Position numbers and translations under genes: made by a program
Notes under the pieces: model-generated
Seen by the model: the letters and a program-made list of their open reading frames with translations, nothing else
Told to the model about the DNA's origin: nothing
Databases searched by the model: none
Assembly: GCA_026004795.1 (NCBI GenBank)
Contig: BPJV01000009.1
Span: 62,001-126,000, forward strand
Direction of reading: 5' to 3'
DNA: 64,000 nucleotides
Source of the DNA: Pirellulaceae bacterium
Lineage (GTDB): Bacteria; Planctomycetota; Planctomycetia; Pirellulales; Pirellulaceae
In this document: piece by piece, positions 49,981 to 61,480 of the stretch
How the letters are laid out: the number at the start of each line of letters is the position of its first letter
Numbering within the stretch: the first letter of the stretch is position 1

Positions 49981-51927
49981 ATGACTGACCCATCCACCAC
50001 GGCACCTGGCCGTCCCGAGCGACTACCGGCCGAACGTTTCTACCTGGTAATGACTGAACGCGCCGAGAAAACAATCGAGTTGATCGAACGGCGCAGTGCT
50101 GTCCTCGCGTGGCTGCGCACTTTTCTGTTTGTGGTAGCGACGGTCGGTCTCCTGCTCGGCTACGGCGCCGATTGGTACGACCGATGGTGCTTGCTCATCG
50201 GCTGGAGTGCAGCGTTCGGTTTCTTGGCGGCCGTTATCTATCACGAACGACTTCGTCAACGACGGCAGGAGTGCGATGCGGAGATCGCCTTGTTCGCTCA
50301 TCTGCGGGCACGAACGCTGCGGCAATGGGAACAATTGCCAGCGGTTCCGATTCTCGCCGAGTTCGAAGACGTGATCTACGCCGACGACCTCGACGTGGGC
50401 GGTCGGGGCAGCTTGCTGGCCCTCCTGTCGTTAGCACGGACCAGCATGGGAAACCGCTGTGTGCAATCGTGGTTGTTCCACCCGGCCGATTGGCCGATGA
50501 TTCAGCAACGGCAACGAGCAGTGCAGCGGTTGGCCGCGATGCGAGAAATGCGCATCGAATTGCTGCGACAGTTAGCCGCGCACCAGAAGCGAAACGGCAG
50601 CGAATATGGACTGTCCGCCTGGGCATCGCAACCCGATTGGTGGTCGGGGCGACGATGGGCGCGCGCGGCGGCATGGCTCGGTCCCGGCCTCGTGCTTCTT
50701 GGGGCAATGGGTTTGGTTTGGTGGAGTCTAGGCAGTCGGACAACCGATGCCCAATGGGCCATCAGTCTGGTGGCCACGGGATTTGCCATCAACATGTTCG
50801 CCACGCTCGCCTGGGGCGGGCCGATCCACGGCATCTTTCAACAGGTTGCCGGTAATCACCGTGCCGTAGAACGGTTGGTGGCGATCTATGAAACGTTGCA
50901 GGAATTGCCGCACGATGTCCCGTTACTGAAAGAGATATCGGAAGTCGCCGGCCACCGCGCAGACTGTGCCCTGGTGGGCTTCCGCCGTTTGCGGCGCATC
51001 GTGCGCCTGGCCACTCTGCAGCGGGATCCACTGTTGTATTTTGTCTATCTGGCCCTGCAACTGACCATCGCTTGGGATTTTTACATCTTGTGGTGGTTGG
51101 AGCGGTGGAAGAAGCAGTTTGGTTCCGCCGTTCCCACGTGGTTGGATGCCCTCGGCAGGTGTGAAGCTCTGATTAGTGCGGCCACGTTGGCCGATGAGAA
51201 TCCAGCCTGGTGTTATGCTCAACCGCCGTCGGACGCCAACACGGCCATGCATGCCGAGGACCTCGCCCATCCGCTACTACCGGATCGCGGGCGAGTAGCC
51301 AACACCTTCACCCTCGACATCCACGCACCCTTGATGTTGGTCACTGGGTCGAACATGGCCGGCAAAAGCACGTTTCTGCGGGCCATCGGTACCAACCTAC
51401 TGTTGGCGCGCGTCGGGGCTCCCAGTTGCGCCAGCCAATTGAGCACCGAGAATTTTGAATTGGCCACCAGTATCCGCCTCCGCGACAGCCTCCAGGATGG
51501 CATCTCGTTCTTCATGGCCGAACTGCGGCGCATTAAACGGATTGTGGAAATGGCGGAAAAGGCACAGATGGCACGCCACGACGACCCGTCGGTTCCGCGC
51601 ATTCTGTTTCTACTCGATGAAATCTTGCAAGGAACGAACAGCCGTGAGCGGTTGCTCGCCGTGCGCAAGATTATCATGCGGCTGCTTCAGGCGGAAGCCG
51701 TCGGTTTCATCAGCACGCACGACCTTGATCTCGCCGCGTACGAGGAAATTCAACGGGTTGCCCAAGTAGTCCACTTCCGTGAATACTTCGTGCGGCACGG
51801 GGATGAGGAGGTGATGCAGTTCGATTATCGGCTGCGTCCGGGACCAACCCCCACGACCAACGCGTTGAAACTTTTGCAGCTGGTTGGACTGGACAACGAC
51901 GCAACGACCTCGGAAGCCCCCTCGTAG
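49981..51927 (+). CDS. Membrane-anchored MutS-type ATPase
   Basis: A 648-residue protein with the MutS ATPase domain at the C-terminus: Walker A VTGSNMAGKSTFLRAIG (454-470), Walker B LFLLDEILQGTNSRER and STHDLDLA. The DNA-binding mismatch domain I of MutS and the Smr domain of MutS2 are missing. Instead the N-terminal part has membrane helices at about 45-60 and 70-87, a pair at about 230-277 and another at about 350-372, with clamp-like helices between them. It fits the poorly studied MutS-like subfamilies that carry membrane segments. It starts with a clear ATG and stands between hflX and the convergent glutamate-synthase-like gene. Function is unknown; canonical mismatch repair is unlikely. 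Confidence 0.85.
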   Translation: MTDPSTTAPGRPERLPAERFYLVMTERAEKTIELIERRSAVLAWLRTFLFVVATVGLLLGYGADWYDRWCLLIGWSAAFGFLAAVIYHERLRQRRQECDAEIALFAHLRARTLRQWEQLPAVPILAEFEDVIYADDLDVGGRGSLLALLSLARTSMGNRCVQSWLFHPADWPMIQQRQRAVQRLAAMREMRIELLRQLAAHQKRNGSEYGLSAWASQPDWWSGRRWARAAAWLGPGLVLLGAMGLVWWSLGSRTTDAQWAISLVATGFAINMFATLAWGGPIHGIFQQVAGNHRAVERLVAIYETLQELPHDVPLLKEISEVAGHRADCALVGFRRLRRIVRLATLQRDPLLYFVYLALQLTIAWDFYILWWLERWKKQFGSAVPTWLDALGRCEALISAATLADENPAWCYAQPPSDANTAMHAEDLAHPLLPDRGRVANTFTLDIHAPLMLVTGSNMAGKSTFLRAIGTNLLLARVGAPSCASQLSTENFELATSIRLRDSLQDGISFFMAELRRIKRIVEMAEKAQMARHDDPSVPRILFLLDEILQGTNSRERLLAVRKIIMRLLQAEAVGFISTHDLDLAAYEEIQRVAQVVHFREYFVRHGDEEVMQFDYRLRPGPTPTTNALKLLQLVGLDNDATTSEAPS

Positions 51928-51944: not shown

Positions 51945-52919
51945 TCACTTCAGCAACTCGACGCCGGCAATCCGGGCTGCGGTTTCCGAGAGGGCGCGCA
52001 GCGACGTCGGTTGAAGATCCCGCAAACGGCGAGCGCCGCACCGTTGCATGAAGTATCGCAACTGCTTCTCCGCCTCCGCCAGACGCTCCTCGATGGCCTG
52101 AGAACCATCGTCGTCGCCCCCCCAGGTAATCCCCGCCAACATGCCACTGCCCACTTGAGCTGTCGAGGCAGTCAACAGGGGAGTCAACCACGCATCGATG
52201 GCATGGACGTTCGCCCCCAGCGCCAAACACACCAGTCCCTCCCAGGGATCTTCGATCCGCGCATCGACGATAATGGCTACGCTGCGATCGGTGTCCTCCT
52301 CGATCATAATGCGCGTTTGGCGAATGGCGGCAACCAGACCCGCGCGCGTAGCATCCAGCGTGGGATCGTGCACCAGCGTCACAAAATCGACGTCTCCCTC
52401 GAGACATCGCATCACGTCCTCCTGGCGACAGGGAACGGGAATAGCAATGCCGACTGCCGCATGGCAATCGAGCGCCGAACGCAGAGCGTTGAAGAAGCCA
52501 AAACGACGACGTGAATGCGACAATTCACTGGGCCAGCCCCACAGTCCAGTGTGGCGATCGCGCAAATCCAGTTCCACCAAATCGGCAGTGCGCAGTTCCT
52601 CGAAATCCCAAAGATCGTTACGAAAAATTCGGCAGAGCCGCAGCGGCGCGTCCTGGCGTGAAAAACCGGCCAACGCATCTTTCGACACGGTAACGACAGC
52701 CTCGCGAGCGCGCAATGCCTTGCAAATCGCCTCCCATTTCCCACCTGCCTGCTCGGGCGTTATGCCGCGCACGATCCAGGGCGTGTGGAGACTCAAAGCG
52801 CGATCGGGGCCCAACCCGTCGATCATCACCTCCGTGTCGTCGACTGTTTCCTTCACCTGATAACCCGCGCTGTTCAACGTTTCGGGCATCAGCATTAGAT
52901 TTCGCAGTACGTCCTTCAT
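51945..52919 (-). CDS. Degenerate glutamate-synthase FMN-domain-like protein
   Basis: A 324-residue protein resembling a shortened GltB FMN/TIM-barrel domain. TADLVELDLRDRHTGLWGWP aligns with the ELEIKxxQGAKPGxGGxLP segment, VAIIVDARIEDPWEGLVCLA with the flavin-phosphate IIADGGIR strand, and AEKQLRYFMQRCGARRLRDL with the closing VREIMAxLGxRSLDDL helix. The 3Fe-4S cysteines and the CHTNTCPVG segment of GltB are missing, so electron transfer as in glutamate synthase is unlikely. Its ATG overlaps the stop of the GXGXG gene (ATGA). It is the last gene of the kinase, glycosyltransferase, flippase and GXGXG operon. Confidence 0.72.
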   Translation of the reverse strand: MKDVLRNLMLMPETLNSAGYQVKETVDDTEVMIDGLGPDRALSLHTPWIVRGITPEQAGGKWEAICKALRAREAVVTVSKDALAGFSRQDAPLRLCRIFRNDLWDFEELRTADLVELDLRDRHTGLWGWPSELSHSRRRFGFFNALRSALDCHAAVGIAIPVPCRQEDVMRCLEGDVDFVTLVHDPTLDATRAGLVAAIRQTRIMIEEDTDRSVAIIVDARIEDPWEGLVCLALGANVHAIDAWLTPLLTASTAQVGSGMLAGITWGGDDDGSQAIEERLAEAEKQLRYFMQRCGARRLRDLQPTSLRALSETAARIAGVELLK

Positions 52920-53587
52920 TCCTGTGGCTCCCGAGGTCGATAGACCCGAAAATCCTTGACGTCTCCCTTGATCCCGGCGCGGGCCAACAGCAGGCTCAAC
53001 CGCAACGCCTCCGCGCTCTTCATCCGCACTTCGCGAACTCCCGACGCTGGTTTGGCCGTCCCCCGCACGAATATCGTCCCACCCACCATGTTCAGCCCCA
53101 GCTCGGCACCGCTACCATTGCACAACACCAGATCTCCACCGCTCATGCCACAGCCGGCTCGATCGCCACAGGTACTGCGCACGACGATGTCGGCTCCCGC
53201 TAAAGCATAACCGCAGTCATTGCCTGCTTTCCCGTGCACACCGAGGAATCCTCCTTTGGCGAATGCCCCCAAAAAATCGTCCGCAGAATTTCGAATCAAG
53301 AGACTTCCTGATTCCATCTGATAAGCAGTACATGCACCGCAAGAACCATGCACTTCGATTTGTGCGTCCGCACCCAAGAAATAAAAATAATTTCCCACGT
53401 CTGCTGCGAACTGCAGATGAATCCCCTTGCGCAATCCCGCAGCCACTCCGGAGACCGTTGCCGGAAGATTTACCACATTCGCTTCGATCGGAGGTGTGAG
53501 AGAGCGCAAGTAGGCATTGAACTCCAGCAGGCTCCGAAAGGCCATCGCATCGATTTCAACCACCGAGTGTTCCGCTTCGCTGTTCAT
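52916..53587 (-). CDS. GXGXG-motif protein (glutamate synthase C-terminal-like)
   Basis: A 223-residue right-handed beta-helix protein of the GXGXG family found at the C-terminus of glutamate synthase large subunits and in formylmethanofuran dehydrogenase subunit C. Repeats are visible as VGNYFYFLGADAQIEVHGS, AGNDCGYALAGADIVVRST, CGDRAGCGMSGGDLVLCNG and AELGLNMVGGTIFVRG. It overlaps the flippase stop before it and the FMN-like gene after it, each by ATGA. Separate GXGXG and FMN-like subunits recall N-methylglutamate synthase, but the glutaminase subunit is absent here. The role is probably structural or as an ammonia or one-carbon tunnel. Confidence 0.85.
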   Translation of the reverse strand: MNSEAEHSVVEIDAMAFRSLLEFNAYLRSLTPPIEANVVNLPATVSGVAAGLRKGIHLQFAADVGNYFYFLGADAQIEVHGSCGACTAYQMESGSLLIRNSADDFLGAFAKGGFLGVHGKAGNDCGYALAGADIVVRSTCGDRAGCGMSGGDLVLCNGSGAELGLNMVGGTIFVRGTAKPASGVREVRMKSAEALRLSLLLARAGIKGDVKDFRVYRPREPQE

Positions 53588-55152
53588 TCCGCAGCTCCCC
53601 TCACCTTCTGCCGTAACTCGTCGGCCAATTGCCGAACCTCCTCCACCTGACTAACCCACAGGCTCGCCACGTAGGCCCCGACACCAACGGGTGCCGCCAG
53701 CCAGGTATTCCCCAATCCGCTGGCGTAGACAGCATGACTGCACAGGCAGGCAAGCAGTGAACATACGGTGGCCAGCGCCACGTACCGACCACATCCGGCA
53801 AAAAATCCATCACCGATCGTACGACGCAGCAGGACAGCCATGGTCGCCGTCGACAAGAGAAAGTAGGCACTAGTGGCTATTGGAATCGCCCACAATCCCC
53901 ACCATCGGAAGAGGCTCACTTTGGCAATTACCCCCAGCAACATCCATCCCAGTCCTACAAAGGTCGGCGTGCGAGTATCCCCTAATACATAGAAAGTGCG
54001 GGCCAGCAGTTCGCCGCTGCTCGCTCCTATGAAAACTCCCAACAGGGCTACCGTAAGCCCCGCAACCAGTCGCCCTTGTTCCATGGTGAATTGTCCACGG
54101 ACCAGAAGGTCTTCAACAATACGTTGCGCGAACACTCCAAATCCCACCGCTATCGGCACGATGAGCAACACCATACGACGAACGGCAATGGCCAATTGCC
54201 GCGCCAACTCCCCCCGCCCGGACCTTACCCAATGCTCAGCAAGCTGTGGAAAGACGATCAATGATAAACTGCTCGTTCCCATTGACAACAAGGCGGCAAG
54301 GAATCGCTGGGCGTAGTAGATGGCGGCGATTGCCCCGGCCCCTTGCAGTCCATCGGCCAGGGTCCGATCGACGAGTGGATCAAGGCGCACGATCGCGGCA
54401 CCGGTCATCAAAGGCCACAGGCCGATCACCAGCCGCCCCAGGCTCGCGGCGTCGGCCCGCGCGGGGCACCAGTGACGCAGCATGGGAAGCAGATGGATCG
54501 CTAAGCTGACGGCCGACCCCAAGTTGATTGCCCAAGCGAAGTAGGCAATATCCGCCGCTCCTCGCCACCATACCAGGAGCAGGCTGGAGGTCACGCCGAT
54601 CACCCCCGCCCAAGCAGGCAATTGAAAACGATGCCGTGCGTGGTAGACCGCCTGCGCCCAGGAGATCCCACTGGTCAACACTACCTGCAGGCTCAGGATC
54701 CGCAGCAACTGGATCGTTTCCGCTCTGGCCACTCGCGACAGATCATCGTACAGCAGGTCGCAGATGGCAGGACTCAGAACCAATACCGCCGCGCTTACCG
54801 CGCCAGTCAACAGTCCGGTGAGGCGTCCGGTATACCACGCCAGCTCCCACCCGGCGATCGATCGAACATCTTGACTGAATCGCGACACCAATTCCGGCAC
54901 TAAGACGTACGCCAGCGATCCAGTAAGCATGGCGGCGATCACTGTGGGGACCGCCAGCGCGGCAGCCAGCGCATCAGCCTGTGTGGCGAGTGCATAGGTG
55001 GTCGCCAGATGCCGGAAAAAAAGAAACTGCAGCATGATCTGCAGAATCGACGTCAGCGAGATCACCACCACGTTGACCGCCGTGCGGCGGGTCGAGGCCG
55101 CACGCAGCGGTGGGGCGGGATCGTTCTGGGGAGCAGAGGAGGCAGCCGTCAT
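53584..55152 (-). CDS. MurJ/MviN-family lipid-linked glycan flippase
   Basis: A 522-residue MATE-like membrane protein with about 13-14 helices. The start VVISLTSILQIMLQFLFFRH, the charged SLAYVLVPELVSRFSQ, and YYAQRFLAALLSMGTSSLSLIVFPQLAEH follow MurJ/MviN proteins, which flip lipid-linked sugars across the membrane. The ATG at 55152 overlaps the glycosyltransferase stop by ATGA. Because it sits next to a glycosyltransferase and not in a murein cluster, it more likely exports a specific glycan or glycolipid than lipid II; many planctomycetes have little peptidoglycan. The frame extends to 55242, but that part lies inside the glycosyltransferase gene. Confidence 0.87.
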   Translation of the reverse strand: MTAASSAPQNDPAPPLRAASTRRTAVNVVVISLTSILQIMLQFLFFRHLATTYALATQADALAAALAVPTVIAAMLTGSLAYVLVPELVSRFSQDVRSIAGWELAWYTGRLTGLLTGAVSAAVLVLSPAICDLLYDDLSRVARAETIQLLRILSLQVVLTSGISWAQAVYHARHRFQLPAWAGVIGVTSSLLLVWWRGAADIAYFAWAINLGSAVSLAIHLLPMLRHWCPARADAASLGRLVIGLWPLMTGAAIVRLDPLVDRTLADGLQGAGAIAAIYYAQRFLAALLSMGTSSLSLIVFPQLAEHWVRSGRGELARQLAIAVRRMVLLIVPIAVGFGVFAQRIVEDLLVRGQFTMEQGRLVAGLTVALLGVFIGASSGELLARTFYVLGDTRTPTFVGLGWMLLGVIAKVSLFRWWGLWAIPIATSAYFLLSTATMAVLLRRTIGDGFFAGCGRYVALATVCSLLACLCSHAVYASGLGNTWLAAPVGVGAYVASLWVSQVEEVRQLADELRQKVRGAAE

Positions 55153-56357
55153 CGTTGCACAGTCTTTCGCCAGCGAGTCGGATTCGTCGGACCGGCCGAT
55201 TCCACCAGTGCCGCGATGAGCTGCTGCATGGTGCCCCCCCAACGCAACAAGCCATGGTGCTGCAGCACGTACTCCCGCCCCCGGTTAGCTCGCTCCTGCA
55301 CCACGGCGGCATCGGCGGTTCGCAGTTGTCGCATAGCATTGCAAACGGCTTCCGCCGACATGGCGTTACTGACCCATCCTCGTCCGTCGCTCAATAACGT
55401 CACGAGATCGTCGCTACACGGCGTCGCGATCACTGGCCGTCCCAGCACCATCGCCTCGAGGGCGACGTTGGGTAGTCCTTCATACTGACTGGGAATCAAC
55501 AGGCCCACCGCGCGGCGCATCAGGGGAAATGGGTTGTTCACCGCGCCACAGAAACGGACGCAGGAGTCGAGCTGCAGTTGCTGACAAAGCGCCTGCAACT
55601 GGGCACGCAAAGGACCATCGCCGACCAGCAACAACTGCTCGCCCTCGGCAGCGGGAATCATTCGACGATATGCGGCAAACGCTTCCAGTGCCCGCTGATG
55701 TCCTTTTTCGGCAGTCATCCGAGCGACCATCAGCCAATAAGGTCTGCCCCGGCATTCGGCATCCGGCGCTGACCACTGCTGCTGCGCGGCCCTTTCGATC
55801 GCTTCGGCGTCGACGGCGTTAGGCACTACCGTGATGCGGTCGAGCGGTAGGCGGAAGTACTCCGCGGCGTCTTCCGCAACGGCGCGCGAGACGGCGATGA
55901 TGACCGACTGCGGGGACTGATAATAACGAGCGAGAAGGTATCGCTTCCACCGATGGAACCTCTCCCTGGCCTGGCCAAAATCCCGGCTGGGAGGGCTGGT
56001 GATCACCGAGATGCGCGGGATCGCCAGACGTCGACACGCGGCCCCGGTAACCAGCGTCATATGGTAGGTGCGATCGTATACCACATCGATGGCGCGACGC
56101 CGCAAGATTTCCGTCATATGCGCAATCTGCGCACGACGAATACGTCCCGGCCACCACAGCCGAGCGTGGTAGTGGGAAAAGAAATCGTGGATCGGCACCC
56201 CAGCAGGGACGCGCTCCATCAGCGTTCCCCGACGATGCAAGAGATAGATTTCCCGCAGGAAATGCTCTGCGGGCAACACGCGAACCAACTGGACCAATTG
56301 GCGTTCGCTGCCGCCTGCCTCCAAGGAGCTACCACATGCCAAGACGCGGATCGTCAC
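55149..56357 (-). CDS. Family 4 glycosyltransferase
   Basis: A 402-residue GT-B glycosyltransferase. The N-terminal domain starts VLACGSSLEAGGSERQLVQL, the typical donor-loop region of GT4. The C-terminal domain has YWLMVARMTAEKGHQRALEA, LLLVGDGPLRAQLQAL, VRFCGAVNNPFPLMRRAVGL and the nucleotide-sugar motif SQYEGLPNVALEAMVLGRPV, with E-x7-E present. It starts with a GTG four bases after the kinase stop and overlaps the flippase by ATGA. It should add a sugar to a membrane-linked acceptor on the inner face before transport. Donor and acceptor cannot be told from sequence. Confidence 0.92.
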   Translation of the reverse strand: MTIRVLACGSSLEAGGSERQLVQLVRVLPAEHFLREIYLLHRRGTLMERVPAGVPIHDFFSHYHARLWWPGRIRRAQIAHMTEILRRRAIDVVYDRTYHMTLVTGAACRRLAIPRISVITSPPSRDFGQARERFHRWKRYLLARYYQSPQSVIIAVSRAVAEDAAEYFRLPLDRITVVPNAVDAEAIERAAQQQWSAPDAECRGRPYWLMVARMTAEKGHQRALEAFAAYRRMIPAAEGEQLLLVGDGPLRAQLQALCQQLQLDSCVRFCGAVNNPFPLMRRAVGLLIPSQYEGLPNVALEAMVLGRPVIATPCSDDLVTLLSDGRGWVSNAMSAEAVCNAMRQLRTADAAVVQERANRGREYVLQHHGLLRWGGTMQQLIAALVESAGPTNPTRWRKTVQR

Positions 56358-56361
56358 GTCA

Positions 56362-58320
56362 TCAGGACTCCGATTCCAGAAAACTGCGAATGCGAACGAT
56401 CTGTGGCTGCGCCCATGGTTTATCGGCGTACAACGTCAGAATATCGCGGTAGAAGGATTTTAACGCGGCTCCCGACAACGACTGCTCGGCAGATTGGATC
56501 AATGCCTCCAGTTCCACGGCCGCTGGTGGCACCTCCTTGGAGATGGGGCGCTGCGTCGTCTGCGCGTACCGCGCCAGTTCCACCAGACGTTGTTCGTCGC
56601 GGGCAAGGTTGTCGATTTGACCGAAGACGTCGAGGAAGGCAGCTAGCTTTTCTCGCGCGCGGAGCGGATTCTCCTCCCGCGCGGTCATACTATCCAGGAA
56701 GGCTTGCTCCAGTGCGCTCAGTGCCTCTTCACCGCCTCGCGACACCCTTCGGCGCAACGATCGCGTCCACCGAGTAAGCTCCAGTTCATTGACCAGCGCT
56801 TGCAATTCCTCGGCCCGTGCGTCGTCGGGAAATCTGGCCAGGAACTGTTCGATCTCGTCACGTACGTCAAGCAATTGACCGTCGTCCCCGGAATCAACGG
56901 CCTGCATCACCTGAGCGTACAGCTCGTCGGCGGTGGGAGGTTGCAGCGTCTTGACGATTACCCCCACGGCAACCAACAGCAGGACGACGATACCCAAAAT
57001 CGACGCCATATGCAGCCAATCTCGCCCTGGCTCGGTACCCCGCTCCTGTTCCAACCATAGGAATGATTCCGGCTCCTCGTCCTGATCGTCGTCCACGGCG
57101 TGGTAGCGACTTGGCCCCGTTCCCGTCACGGCGCTATGACCGCCCGGTGCCGCAGAGGCTTCGACCGAGGGACTGTGCGTGAAGTCATCGACATCGATTA
57201 CCGAGGACTGGGTTTCCGACGCGCTTTGTCCGTCAGGCAACAATTGCTGCAGGTCTTGAGCCGCCACGGTCACTTCGTCATCCCCGATGGAATCAACCTT
57301 CGCGTCGAACTTCGCCGACTTCCCTGGAGCGGCGATGGTTTCGCCGGTGCGAGGCGGCGACTTGGCCGCTTCGGTCACTCGCAAGTCATCATCATCGATA
57401 TCGGACAGATCGAGGGACGTCATCTCCGGCCCGATCGCCTCGCAGGCATCCCCCGTCGGTGCCCCGGACTTCTCACTCGGCGATGGTTTCTTTCCCACCG
57501 TAGCATGCTTCATCGCCAACAAGCGATTGCGAACCACCAGTGCGGTGGGGGGGCGTCGCGAAGGGTCTTTTTCGAGCAACTCATAGACGATCTGGGCCAA
57601 CTCCGGCGGCACCTCAGGGGCTTTCTCACTCAGGCTGGGAACCGAATGGTAGCGCACGGCGTAAAGCACTTCGGGCACGCTACGCGCCGCGAACGGAGGC
57701 TTGCCAGCCAACAGGGCGTACATGACGCAGCCGAGGGCGTACAAATCGCTCCGCGCCGTCACCGGCTTCCCCTCCGCTTGCTCCGGTGGCATGTAGTCGG
57801 CCGTGCCGATCACCGCCCCCGCAGCGGTCACTTCGCTGGCACCGAACAATTTGGCGATACCAAAATCCGTTAGTTTGACGGTTCCCCCCGAGGCCACCAG
57901 CAGGTTGGCAGGTTTCAAATCGCGGTGAATGATTCCCAAATCATGGGCATGCTTGAGGGCACCGGTGGTTTGAATCCCCACCTCCAGAACATCTTCCCAC
58001 GGGATTCTCCCGTGCTTGCGGAGGTGCTGTTCCAGGGAATTGCCTTCCACGTACTCCATGGCATAGAACAGCAACCCTCGCTCCTCGCCATAGCCGAGCA
58101 GAGTAACGATGTTCGGATGGCGCAGACGTTTCAGCACTTCCACTTCGGCGGCGAAGCGACGGCGGAATTTCATTTGGTCGGCGATCGCCGGCGAGATGAC
58201 TTTGATCGCCACCGGTTCTCCGCTACGTTGATGCACTCCCTTGTACACCACCCCCATACCACCGCGTCCCAGTATGGATTCCACGCGGTAGGGGCCAAGG
58301 AATTCAAGATCAAGTTGCAT
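56362..58320 (-). CDS. Membrane Ser/Thr protein kinase (PknB type)
   Basis: A 652-residue kinase. The catalytic domain (about 10-275) has ILGRGGMGVVYKG (16-28), catalytic K40, HRDLKPAN, TDFGIAKLF and the APE-equivalent YMPPEQAEGKP. An acidic disordered linker (about 290-455) leads to a single transmembrane helix (MASILGIVVLLLVAVGVIV) and an outer or far domain of about 180 residues with helical repeats (VMQAVDSGDDGQLLDVRDEI, then ARAEELQALVNELELTRW). No PASTA repeats are present. I chose the ATG at 58320; a TTG at 58350 is the alternative. It heads the leftward operon with the glycosyltransferase, flippase and glutamate-synthase-like genes and may regulate them by phosphorylation. Confidence 0.93.
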   Translation of the reverse strand: MQLDLEFLGPYRVESILGRGGMGVVYKGVHQRSGEPVAIKVISPAIADQMKFRRRFAAEVEVLKRLRHPNIVTLLGYGEERGLLFYAMEYVEGNSLEQHLRKHGRIPWEDVLEVGIQTTGALKHAHDLGIIHRDLKPANLLVASGGTVKLTDFGIAKLFGASEVTAAGAVIGTADYMPPEQAEGKPVTARSDLYALGCVMYALLAGKPPFAARSVPEVLYAVRYHSVPSLSEKAPEVPPELAQIVYELLEKDPSRRPPTALVVRNRLLAMKHATVGKKPSPSEKSGAPTGDACEAIGPEMTSLDLSDIDDDDLRVTEAAKSPPRTGETIAAPGKSAKFDAKVDSIGDDEVTVAAQDLQQLLPDGQSASETQSSVIDVDDFTHSPSVEASAAPGGHSAVTGTGPSRYHAVDDDQDEEPESFLWLEQERGTEPGRDWLHMASILGIVVLLLVAVGVIVKTLQPPTADELYAQVMQAVDSGDDGQLLDVRDEIEQFLARFPDDARAEELQALVNELELTRWTRSLRRRVSRGGEEALSALEQAFLDSMTAREENPLRAREKLAAFLDVFGQIDNLARDEQRLVELARYAQTTQRPISKEVPPAAVELEALIQSAEQSLSGAALKSFYRDILTLYADKPWAQPQIVRIRSFLESES

Positions 58321-58455: not shown

Positions 58456-59379
58456 ATGTTATTGTACGTCAGTCAACAGTTCGAGAACCATCAAACGGGC
58501 CACCATCCCGAATGCCCCGCCCGCACAACCCGGCTGAATCGGTTGCTGGAAGAGACCGGTTGGCTGGAGAGAGCCACCGTGCCCCCCTGGAATCCAGCTT
58601 CGCGAGAACAGTTGCAATGGAACCATAGTCCGGAATATGTGGATCAATTGGAGCGCTGGTGCCGCGAGAATGCCGGGCAGATCGAAGCCGACACGGTGGT
58701 CAGCCCGGGATCGTGGGAGGCAGCCCGATGGGCAGCCGGTGCCGCCATCGATGCCGTGCGGCGGGTGCTGGCGGGTGAAGCAGCGACGGCCTTCTGCGCC
58801 ATTCGTCCGCCGGGACATCATGCCCTCCCTGACAGGCCCATGGGGTTCTGCCTGGTGAACAACGTGGCGTTGGCAGCGCATGCTGCTCTGCGGTGCGGAG
58901 CAGAGCGGGTGATGATCATCGATTGGGACGTCCATCATGGTAACGGCACGCAAGAGGCTTTCTATGCGGACGGGCGAGTGGCCTTCTATTCGATCCACCG
59001 CAGCCCCTTTTATCCCGGCACGGGAGCCGCAGACGAACGGGGCGTCGGGGCCGGAGAGGGTTGGATTCTCAACCGCCCGGTACCGGCAACGATTTCCACC
59101 AAGGCCTACATCGAGCTTTTTTCCGAGGACATTCAGCTGCTGGCCGAACGGACCGATCCCCAGCACCTACTCATCAGTGCAGGATTCGACGCCCACCGCG
59201 GCGATCCAGTTGGTGGGCTCTGCCTGGAAGAAGAGGACTTCGCGACGCTCACGGCCATCGTACAGTCGGTTGCTCAACGTCGAGGAATCCAGGGAATCGT
59301 CAGCATGCTCGAAGGGGGCTACCACCTCGAGCATATGCCGCGCAGCGTGTTGGCTCATATCCAACAGCTGGCTCACTGA
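58456..59379 (+). CDS. Histone-deacetylase-family amidohydrolase
   Basis: A 307-residue zinc hydrolase of the HDAC/AcuC/acetylpolyamine amidohydrolase superfamily (class II-like). The start [20 protein letters not shown], the active-site IRPPGHHA (H121, H122), zinc ligands D158 and H160 in [12 protein letters not shown], the third ligand in [11 protein letters not shown], and the closing [11 protein letters not shown] are all present, so it should be active. Bacterial members remove acetyl groups from polyamines, small amides or proteins. The ATG at 58456 has GGGAG ten bases upstream. It faces away from the kinase operon, with 135 bases between. The substrate is unknown. Confidence 0.94.
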
Positions 59380-59406: not shown

Positions 59407-61014
59407 TCAAGCCGTAGGCGGGTCGTTGCGCGGTGGGTTCAATTCCAAGGATTCCCCACCGCTACCGCTTTCGCTCTGTGAATCACTGCCACTGCCTCCC
59501 GCCTCGTTGTTCGACGGTGGCGGAAACACGGACTCGGCCTGCGGAGCGGCCATGTCGCCCTGGCCGTTTCCATTATTCGCCGAAGCCCCCGAGTTGTCGG
59601 CGGCATTCCCTCCCGCACTCGATGAATTCGACGAGCTGGACGAAGCCTGCGCATCCTCCTCGGGTATTTCAATTCGTTGCATCGACCGGTCACCCAATGA
59701 AGGTGGCACATCGGCAGGATCGGTACTCGAACCGGCCGCCCCTTGGTTGCCAGTGGCGGAGCTGGACGGTGCTGGTCGAGGCTCTCCATAGATCACTCGC
59801 TCGATCACCTCTCCGGCACACGGATCGCCGGCTACGGGCATCAGCGAACTGCGTTCAACCGACAATGCTGCTGAGTAGGGATCGTAGTAGCTGAGCACCG
59901 TGGGACTGTGCACGACGCGTGGCACGAGCTTTCGCACCGTGTACGGTTCATACCGTGCCACACGGCGCGGCACCTTTACTTTTGTCGTCACCGCCTCGGT
60001 TTCATAATACTGCACCGGGACCTCTTCTTCGACCGTCTCCACTTTGTACGTAACTCGCTCCACGGTCTTCGGACGCACCATCTCTTCTTCGACCCACTCG
60101 GTGACCGTCACCGGCACCTTACGCACTACTTCTTGAGTGACCGGTTTGCGAATGGTGTAGGGAACCTTGCGCACCTCCTGAACTGGCTCCATGCGGGTCA
60201 CCGTCACCGGCACTTGTTCCTCGATAACCTCGGTCTCCATGCGGGTTACCTGAACCGGCACTTGTTGTTGAACGGTGGTCGGCATCAACGTCGTCTTGGG
60301 TACGACGACCGGTACCGGGTTGGGCTTGTACTGGATCTGAGCAAAGGTTCGCGGCGGCCCCGTGTAGGGTACCCATCCCAAACCACCGCGGCGATAGGCT
60401 ACGGTGCCATCGGCGGCCACATGCATGCCCCCGGGGACCCAGCGCAGCAAATAGCGAGTATCGCCTGGCTGCACCATGGGCTGGGCAACGTATTGCCCTT
60501 GGTCGACAACCGTTTGCTCATAGGTCGTCACTGGCTGGTAGGTCACGTAGTTCTGAGTCTGCAACTGAGTTTCCACCACCGGCCGCTGGACCACACGACG
60601 CTGCGTTTGGTAAGTGGTCTCCGTAACCGGTCGGTAGGTGGTATACGTCTCTTCGCGTTCGGCCGTTTCCGTCACATAGGTCGTCTGCAGAACACGCTCC
60701 TCCTTGAAAGTCTGCCGCGTGACAGGACGACGGACGATGTAGCGTTCTTCAACCGTCGAGGTTTCGACGACCGGCTTGCGCACCGTCTTCGTTCGTTTCT
60801 CCAGCCGCGTTTTGAGAACCGGGCGGTAGGTCGTAACCTCTTGCTCCTCGTACACGGTCTCGTAGACCACCCGCATGCGCTGCTCGAGCTGCTCCTCGTA
60901 GACCGTTTGGGGCTGGACGCTATAAACAGGACCGCAAACTTGGGCCACCGCGGCGACCGGCATCACGGCGCCCATGGTAGCCAGGACGGAGATGTGCACA
61001 GATCGAAGCTTCAT
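59407..61014 (-). CDS. Secreted Tyr/Val/Pro repeat protein, YTV-like wall protein
   Basis: A 535-residue exported protein with a signal peptide (about 1-24, ISVLATMGAVMPVAAVAQ). Residues 35-370 consist of short repeats such as VYETVYEEQ, TYRPVLKTR, TVRKPVVET, RRPVTRQTF, YVTYQPVTTYEQ, VPVTVTRMEP and YTIRKPVTQE, with strong alternation of Val/Thr with Glu/Arg, i.e. extended beta strands. This is like the YTV repeats of planctomycete cell-wall proteins, though it is far smaller than the giant members. An interruption at about 190-240 carries RYLLRWVPGGMHVAADGT. The tail (about 430-535) is Ser/Asn/Gly/Pro-rich and disordered. ATG 61014 has GGTGG four bases upstream. Confidence 0.82.
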   Translation of the reverse strand: MKLRSVHISVLATMGAVMPVAAVAQVCGPVYSVQPQTVYEEQLEQRMRVVYETVYEEQEVTTYRPVLKTRLEKRTKTVRKPVVETSTVEERYIVRRPVTRQTFKEERVLQTTYVTETAEREETYTTYRPVTETTYQTQRRVVQRPVVETQLQTQNYVTYQPVTTYEQTVVDQGQYVAQPMVQPGDTRYLLRWVPGGMHVAADGTVAYRRGGLGWVPYTGPPRTFAQIQYKPNPVPVVVPKTTLMPTTVQQQVPVQVTRMETEVIEEQVPVTVTRMEPVQEVRKVPYTIRKPVTQEVVRKVPVTVTEWVEEEMVRPKTVERVTYKVETVEEEVPVQYYETEAVTTKVKVPRRVARYEPYTVRKLVPRVVHSPTVLSYYDPYSAALSVERSSLMPVAGDPCAGEVIERVIYGEPRPAPSSSATGNQGAAGSSTDPADVPPSLGDRSMQRIEIPEEDAQASSSSSNSSSAGGNAADNSGASANNGNGQGDMAAPQAESVFPPPSNNEAGGSGSDSQSESGSGGESLELNPPRNDPPTA

Positions 61015-61480
61015 ACTACCACCGTTTTTCTGCCATGGAGTCATGCATTCGCACCACGTGCGATCGTAATCCAACAAAGCCTGCGAAGCTCCATCTCCTC
61101 TGCGGCGGATCCTTCACCCCGTGCGACGGGTTTGCCCTGGCACCGCTTCAATCGCAGCCCAGGCGGCAATCCCTCGTGTCATTATGGCACGTCACGGAAC
61201 CCGTTTCCACGATCGTCACCACCGCATCGCGACAACCCGCCAAGCAATACCAACTCCTCGGCAAATAGCATGCCATTTTCTCCATCCTGGTCAGTTGGTA
61301 TCGGAGAACGGGCAGGCTGTCTCTGTGTTAGCAATGTACGTGACTGAGTCTCCAGTCCATAGGCGGAGTTTAGGAAGAACGCCAGAAGAGAAAAAGAATC
61401 CCCTGGCCAAGTTCCGATTAGGCCGATTAGGCAAGACCGACTGCCTGCCGAATAGGGAAAGCTAGCAAAGAATCTTGGCA
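61015..61480. other. Intergenic stretch upstream of the YTV-like gene
   Basis: About 470 bases between two leftward genes. CCTAATCGG occurs twice close together (about 61420-61440). No supported gene; it should contain the promoter of the YTV-like gene. Confidence 0.45.

Follow-up and report, generated by a model that had tools for sequence, protein, structure and literature searches.

A candidate pseudoenzyme pair derived from a split glutamate synthase in a glycan-linked operon of the Pirellulaceae

Introduction

GltB is a single long chain that combines a glutaminase and cofactors with a GXGXG domain and a barrel of the flavin mononucleotide (FMN) type. In the split systems of the MgsABC/GlxBCD type, the GXGXG and FMN-barrel parts are instead separate subunits encoded side by side, and MgsA, MgsB and MgsC have been described as GltB1-, GltB3- and GltB2-like, respectively (PMC6237917). 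Here, a degenerate relative of the latter two subunits is described from a 64,000-nucleotide stretch of contig BPJV01000009.1 of a Pirellulaceae bacterium (the window, in whose positions all coordinates are given). On the minus strand, a closely packed operon (58320-51945) encodes, in this order, a Ser/Thr kinase, a family 4 glycosyltransferase (GT4), a MurJ-family flippase, a GXGXG protein and a protein of 324 amino acids (aa). The last two form the subject of this study.

Like the corresponding MgsABC/GlxBCD subunits, the two proteins are encoded side by side, and both are homologous to those subunits by sequence. Unlike them, the pair is without the iron-sulfur (Fe-S) cysteines, most FMN-site residues or a detected glutaminase subunit, and the barrel is shorter (324 aa, against 442 and 446 aa in two active MgsC-type proteins). 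No class-II glutaminase is encoded in the operon. Among the traits of MgsABC/GlxBCD, the separate GXGXG subunit is present, and the glutaminase, the Glu_synthase domain with its FMN-site residues and the Fe-S cysteines are absent. With GltB, the pair shares the fold of the GXGXG domain and an FMN-type barrel, but not the single-chain architecture of the GltB found in this genome (a 1532-aa frame on contig C3). Another beta-helix GXGXG protein, FwdC/FhcC, gives the best single-sequence match, though no further Fwd/Fhc subunit is encoded in the operon, the match falls below the cut-off and the partner is a barrel of the glutamate-synthase type.

In the sequence tests made, the pair looks like a catalytically dead glutamate-synthase core. 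We propose, with a probability of roughly 0.6, that the two proteins are an obligate complex derived from a split glutamate synthase (MgsABC/GlxBCD type), which serves as a non-redox scaffold or ligand-responsive regulator and, in the genus of the window, as an accessory of glycan metabolism.

Descent of the Two Small Proteins

52916..53587, minus strand: GXGXG beta-helix protein, 223 aa, derived from MgsB/GlxC/GltB3, the co-occurring partner of the barrel (predicted fold, profile)
51945..52919, minus strand: degenerate FMN-type triosephosphate isomerase (TIM) barrel, 324 aa, derived from MgsC/GlxD/GltB2, without Fe-S cysteines and most flavin-site residues (model, profile, alignment)

Below, "type-2" is a label for the degenerate pair, and "active" means presumed active as judged by conserved residues. 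The 324-aa protein matches none of the Pfam families, so that PF01645 (Glu_synthase) is not matched either, NCBIfam offers nothing usable, and no sequence in the PDB matches it significantly. A scan of the contigs with its sequence alone gave no relatives; these were gathered by whole-genome searches and by scanning with a sub-family alignment, which yielded 25 named loci. The predicted structure (predicted local distance difference test score, pLDDT, of 88.4) is a TIM barrel of the class of FMN oxidoreductases and inosine monophosphate dehydrogenase, with a Z score of 22.1 over 272 residues to type II isopentenyl diphosphate isomerase. No glutamate synthase chain stands among the 50 VIA-align matches listed of 999 aligned chains, which excludes nothing. 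A profile built from 21 relatives of the barrel, with no presumed active row, matches eight MgsC-type proteins from within this bacterial family with E values of 1e-16 to 1e-20, and scores 0.2 bits on the genome's own GltB. Comparison by hhalign with one of these eight proteins, which carries a Glu_synthase domain (316 bits), gave a probability of 98.3.

The model of the GXGXG protein (pLDDT 94.5) fits best to residues 1242-1498 of glutamate synthase 1ofe (Z 24.3, 201 residues, 2.4 Å), followed by FwdC of 5t61 (Z 21.6). Its score of 29.3 bits for the Pfam GXGXG family lies slightly below the cut-off of 32.5 bits. When scored as a single sequence, it matches formylmethanofuran dehydrogenase subunit C better than GltB (57.6 versus 8 bits), so that the resemblance to GltB proposed in the initial annotation holds by fold and not by single sequence. 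Identity with FwdC/FhcC was considered and rejected: 57.6 bits is far below the TIGR03122 cut-off of 130.65, three genuine subunit-C proteins from this bacterial family (one of them L075, on contig C4 of this genome) score 258-261 bits on that model, and the partner is a barrel of the glutamate-synthase type. With the type-2 GXGXG profile, seven MgsB-type proteins reach 171-185 bits, three subunit-C proteins 74-92 bits and GltB 15.7 bits. Given these scores and the matches of the barrel profile and of hhalign, both proteins most likely have a common source in a split glutamate synthase such as MgsBC/GlxCD, of which they would represent the GXGXG and FMN subunits. Models and profiles thus agree with the earlier proposal that matched the two small proteins to the C-terminal (GXGXG) domain and the FMN domain of glutamate synthase, and the TIM barrel that had been set as a test of it is predicted.

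Loss of Conserved Residues and Selection on Both Genes

Conservation was compared between 34 homologues presumed to be active (28 of these came from the phylum sample and five from the family, and residues 701-1300 of the genome's own GltB were added) and 74 degenerate relatives of the barrel, from which sequences below 270 aa and duplicates had been dropped. Among 67 positions that are near-invariant in the active set, only four (P86, R216, D247 and G314 in the numbering of L061) are kept in at least 80% of the relatives, and 43 survive in no more than 10%. As stated in the initial annotation for the window protein, the Fe-S cysteines are lost, with C330, C361 and C366 each present in 0 of 74 relatives. 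The conserved lysines K165 and K228 are likewise absent from all 74, and the glycines G119, G121 and G122 remain in one, one and none, respectively. From their invariance, we take these lysines and glycines to be FMN-binding. In the GGT and SGG motifs, G256 is kept in 0, G257 in 3, G299 in 7 and G300 in 31 of 74. The same pattern of loss was found in a smaller set of 41 relatives (above 200 bits, duplicates dropped). Three positions have become conserved among the relatives, W127 (69/74), P130 (70/74) and D242 (69/74) in window numbering, and no new set of catalytic-looking residues is common to all 74.

A glutaminase of the MgsA type was found in none of 12 pair-bearing genomes, where the best match reached 44.6 bits and the matched frames, with one exception, were 549-693 aa long. 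All three control genomes with an active system returned their glutaminase, at 253, 440 and 458 bits.

The ratio of nonsynonymous to synonymous substitution rates (dN/dS) was 0.06-0.33 in four pairs of relatives, in each for both genes. Purifying selection on both genes was thus measured in close relatives, and the genes are therefore not decaying.

Pairing Across the Family

Pairing was surveyed in 241 genomes of one family, presumably the Pirellulaceae, to which Rhodopirellula belongs; the named relatives come from Rhodopirellula, Rubripirellula, Stieleria and further planctomycetes. In a sample of 392 genomes from the phylum, high-scoring degenerate barrels occur only within this family, and matches elsewhere do not exceed 73 bits. 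In these profile searches, scoring was limited to the 8 to 11 best candidates of each genome, and to the five best in the phylum sample. A type-2 GXGXG gene is present in 109 of the 241 genomes, the barrel gene is present in all 109 of these, and neither was found in the remaining 132, which include incomplete assemblies.

At an E value of 1e-30, 120 genomes had a GXGXG match, from which 11 of the active type were removed (ten at 167-187 bits, and G054 with 108 bits and a 672-aa frame). The lowest full-length type-2 score (196.5 bits) is about 10 bits above the active ones, and genomic context was therefore used as well. Nine of the ten active-type genes at 167-187 bits were inspected (all but that of G508), and each adjoins a glutaminase gene or an FMN subunit. 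Cut or split matches of 113-182 bits in G487, G489, G527, G563 and G615 were retained since a degenerate barrel adjoins them. The count of 109 barrels consists of 83 found by profile, 21 seen directly downstream of the GXGXG gene in the contexts and five found with a closer profile.

In 23 genomes, which belong to five genera (13 in g45, three in g7, one in g66, one in g37 and five in g11), the two genes are not adjacent: they lie on separate contigs, or share a contig at a distance of more than 150 kb. Linkage alone is therefore insufficient to account for the pairing. The five g11 genomes had been predicted to hold a non-adjacent barrel, and the closer profile, with one known genome as positive control, found it in all five at 187-202 bits. 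With this profile, the barrel was not found in the two genomes of the window's genus that have no GXGXG gene. Tree distances of the two genes correlate with r = 0.915 over 59 type-2 loci; the comparison drew on 65 rows in which both genes were present (59 type-2 and six active), after five duplicate loci and short rows had been dropped. The real unit is the GXGXG-barrel pair.

Active systems occur in the same family. At L061 (3661-11084) and similar loci, genes for an active-type glutaminase, GXGXG protein and FMN subunit stand ahead of those for a glutamine-synthetase-family protein and a DAO-family oxidoreductase. The ten active-type genomes gave no match to the degenerate barrel by profile.

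Genomic Neighbourhoods of the Pair

The neighbourhoods of the GXGXG gene were inspected in 58 of the 109 genomes and at the 25 named loci, some of which are in the same genomes; open reading frame calling overlooked the GXGXG or barrel gene at a few loci (e.g., L068, L181, L189, L207 and L214). In the genus of the window, 13 of 15 genomes have the pair, and the contig reaches upstream of it in ten and stops at it in three. In all ten informative genomes, genes of the glycan block precede the pair: five have kinase-GT-MurJ, three have kinase-GT without MurJ (one with a gap of 433 bases), and two have MurJ and then the end of the contig. Because the order kinase-GT-(MurJ)-GXGXG-barrel recurs in other genomes of the genus, the operon is not a product of chance.

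Outside this genus, linkage to MurJ among the 58 neighbourhoods is limited to one further genome, G025 of another genus, where GT-MurJ stands upstream of the pair. In the stretches inspected elsewhere, this MurJ has no relative and this GT has a single one, some 9 kb distant (L053). A different GT4 gene is the third gene upstream of the pair at L043, and eight distinct loci of the Rhodopirellula/Rubripirellula type have a GT2-family gene on the opposite strand, three genes downstream. At 18 of the 25 named loci (e.g., L109-L127), the pair is immediately preceded by one or two genes belonging to a purine nucleoside phosphorylase cluster, as identified from representatives. Genus g11 has topoisomerase I (L041) or argB-argF (L194, where the argB and ornithine carbamoyltransferase models score above cut-off). 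Other neighbours are a metallophosphatase (L039), an SHD1 protein upstream with glucose-6-phosphate dehydrogenase downstream (L070), a c554-type cytochrome (L043, L056) and glutamate dehydrogenase (L053). In turn, relatives of the MurJ protein occur in 9 of 100 sampled genomes. They adjoin the pair in three of these and not in the other six, among which G066 carries the pair at a separate locus. Glycan block and pair can thus occur apart, yet travel together in the genus of the window.

The glycan-pathway operon of the initial annotation thus stands within this genus (10/10) and not in general, as many other genera have the pair but not these glycan genes beside it, a finding that the annotation itself had named as contrary to its proposal.

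The Operon and Its Kinase, Glycosyltransferase and Flippase

56362..58320, minus strand: Hanks-type Ser/Thr kinase, 652 aa (catalytic motifs, one hydrophobic segment)
55149..56357, minus strand: GT4 glycosyltransferase, 402 aa, GTG start (E-x7-E motif at residue 293)
53584..55152, minus strand: MurJ-family flippase, 522 aa (PF03023 above cut-off)

The GT and MurJ, MurJ and GXGXG, and GXGXG and 324-aa genes overlap by ATGA, and the stop codon of the kinase gene is separated by four bases from the GTG start of the GT gene, an arrangement and coordinates that the initial annotation had given correctly. Promoter and terminator scans of the operon returned no more sites than shuffled sequence.

The kinase domain (PF00069, 197 bits) has the catalytic motifs AIK, HRDLKP and DFG, and a single hydrophobic segment (residues 438-456) is followed by a C-terminal part that is probably extracytoplasmic. 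The kinase resembles a core gene of the family, since this C-terminal part (56362-57033) is present in 10 of 10 family genomes tested. Tests for a PASTA kinase were negative, with NF033483 at 290 bits against a cut-off of 450 and no PASTA family for the kinase in the Pfam table. In the two genomes of the window's genus without the pair, the kinase gene adjoins neither GT, MurJ nor the pair; one of them (G492) has MurJ elsewhere. The flippase scores above the Pfam cut-off (PF03023, 140.1 versus 27.4 bits) and below that of the NCBIfam equivalog TIGR01695 (155.7 versus 235.55 bits), a model that matches in 12 of 14 control genomes and exceeds its cut-off in just six. It is the sole MurJ-family protein above the Pfam cut-off in this genome (G000:C3:292750). 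Five of the 15 genomes of the genus have no MurJ-family protein above about 30 bits.

A Ser/Thr kinase adjoining a MurJ-family flippase is loosely parallel to the mycobacterial control of lipid II flipping by PknB, MviN (MurJ) and FhaA. The operon differs in that its proteins have no FHA or pseudokinase domain, its kinase has no PASTA match and, in 3 of 10 genomes of the genus, it has no flippase gene.

Three further genes flank the operon. A MutS-like protein with MutS_III and MutS_V domains and hydrophobic N-terminal stretches (49981-51927) is convergent with the operon and adjoins it in several genomes of the genus. A histone-deacetylase-family protein (58456-59379; PF00850, 304 bits) is divergent from the kinase gene, and a repetitive protein of 556 aa with YTV repeats (PF07639) lies at 59407-61077.

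Discussion

Homology, folds and residue losses agree with the suggestion of the initial annotation that a glutamate-synthase module has been repurposed. From the computed folds, homology, residue losses, selection and co-occurrence, we infer a complex, a ligand and a role in glycan metabolism. The beta-helix and the barrel would still bind each other as they do in glutamate synthase, and their complex would act without redox chemistry, either as a scaffold or as a sensor holding a new ligand in the pocket vacated by flavin. Within the genus of the window, co-expression of the pair is probable with the membrane kinase, the GT4 glycosyltransferase and, in most genomes, the MurJ-family flippase. 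By way of this co-expression, the pair would most likely assist or regulate an envelope-glycan step, which is the weakest part of the proposal.

Several observations weigh against this reading. The AlphaFold alignment contained six presumed active rows, which could favour a barrel model, and homology was therefore checked separately by sequence alone. Flavin could bind through other residues, and G300 of the flavin site is kept in 31 of 74 relatives. A 280-aa frame in G059 has a weak glutaminase-like match of 29.7 bits. The barrel of the window, one of the fast-diverging members, has 29% identity to that of L038, with a dN/dS of 0.51 that is near saturation and is not relied on; the operon neighbours have 46-54% identity to their L038 counterparts, so that the barrel evolves faster, possibly under relaxed constraint. 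Co-occurrence and matched trees (r = 0.915) are equally expected from common descent of both genes. Finally, the glycan link is limited to one genus and, in part, one more genome, and 3 of 10 genomes within the genus are without MurJ in the operon.

The pair might be an enzyme that is still active with new chemistry, with a different cofactor or substrate now occupying the old flavin pocket and the operon version modifying a glycan or its lipid carrier. The retained barrel fold, the purifying selection measured in relatives, the new conserved positions W127, P130 and D242, and a sub-group of seven proteins with many more invariant residues are all in keeping with this. Nevertheless, such an enzyme is unlikely: apart from residues that the active family conserves too, the 74 relatives have no group of several polar, catalytic-looking residues in common, and a single glycan reaction does not fit because the neighbours are unrelated between genera. 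Somewhat less probable still is that the pair regulates glutamate and nitrogen metabolism or acts there as a decoy, directed for instance at glutamate synthase or glutamate dehydrogenase, with the glycan operon as a mere site of expression. Descent from glutamate synthase and a full GltB elsewhere in the genome speak for it, as does the position of the pair after argB-argF in part of g11 and after the glutamate dehydrogenase gene at L053; a glutamate synthase-glutamate dehydrogenase complex has also been solved (PDB 7mfm). Most neighbourhoods inspected, however, are not related to nitrogen (purine nucleoside phosphorylase, topoisomerase I, kinase-GT).

The amide or amino decoration proposed in the initial annotation, in which a working amidotransferase module would amidate or aminate a glycan or lipid, is now largely refuted and very improbable. 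It drew on the operon shared by a GT4 enzyme, a MurJ-family flippase and a module of glutamate-synthase descent, to which the GT2-family gene at the eight Rhodopirellula/Rubripirellula-type loci can be added. Against it stand the absence of an MgsA-type glutaminase from all 12 pair-bearing genomes searched, the complete loss of the Fe-S cysteines and flavin-site lysines (0/74) with that of most glycines and other flavin-site positions, and the occurrence of the pair in other genera without relatives of these glycan genes. That the genes are decaying relics carried along in operons is the most improbable of the alternatives, even though the window barrel diverges faster than its neighbours (29% versus 46-54% identity to L038), as most rows matched by the profile have no internal stop, dN/dS in relatives is 0.06-0.33, and the genes co-occur in 109 of 109 genomes, in 23 of which they are not adjacent.

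In addition to the proposed complex, a broader idea, given somewhat less than an even chance, is that an entire multi-subunit core, and not one subunit alone, was converted: beta-helix and barrel would have parted with glutaminase, flavin and Fe-S cluster together to become an obligate pseudoenzyme pair. A lineage of Planctomycetota would have retained this pair and then placed it in differing operons as a reusable scaffold or sensor, in the genus of the window in a kinase-linked envelope-glycan operon. Singly, the parts are of known kinds; as far as tested, a two-subunit core retained without its cofactor residues over much of a family is new. A literature search over sources other than subscription papers and preprints found no description of such a pseudoenzyme pair in Pirellulaceae, which is weak evidence for novelty.

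If the proposal is correct, a two-subunit enzyme core has been retained as a pair after the loss of its cofactors, and the strict pairing over 109 genomes predicts that the two proteins interact physically. In Pirellulaceae, annotations such as "glutamate synthase-like" or "FwdC-like" may then mark a protein that is not an enzyme, and the purpose for which pseudoenzyme complexes are kept would become testable.

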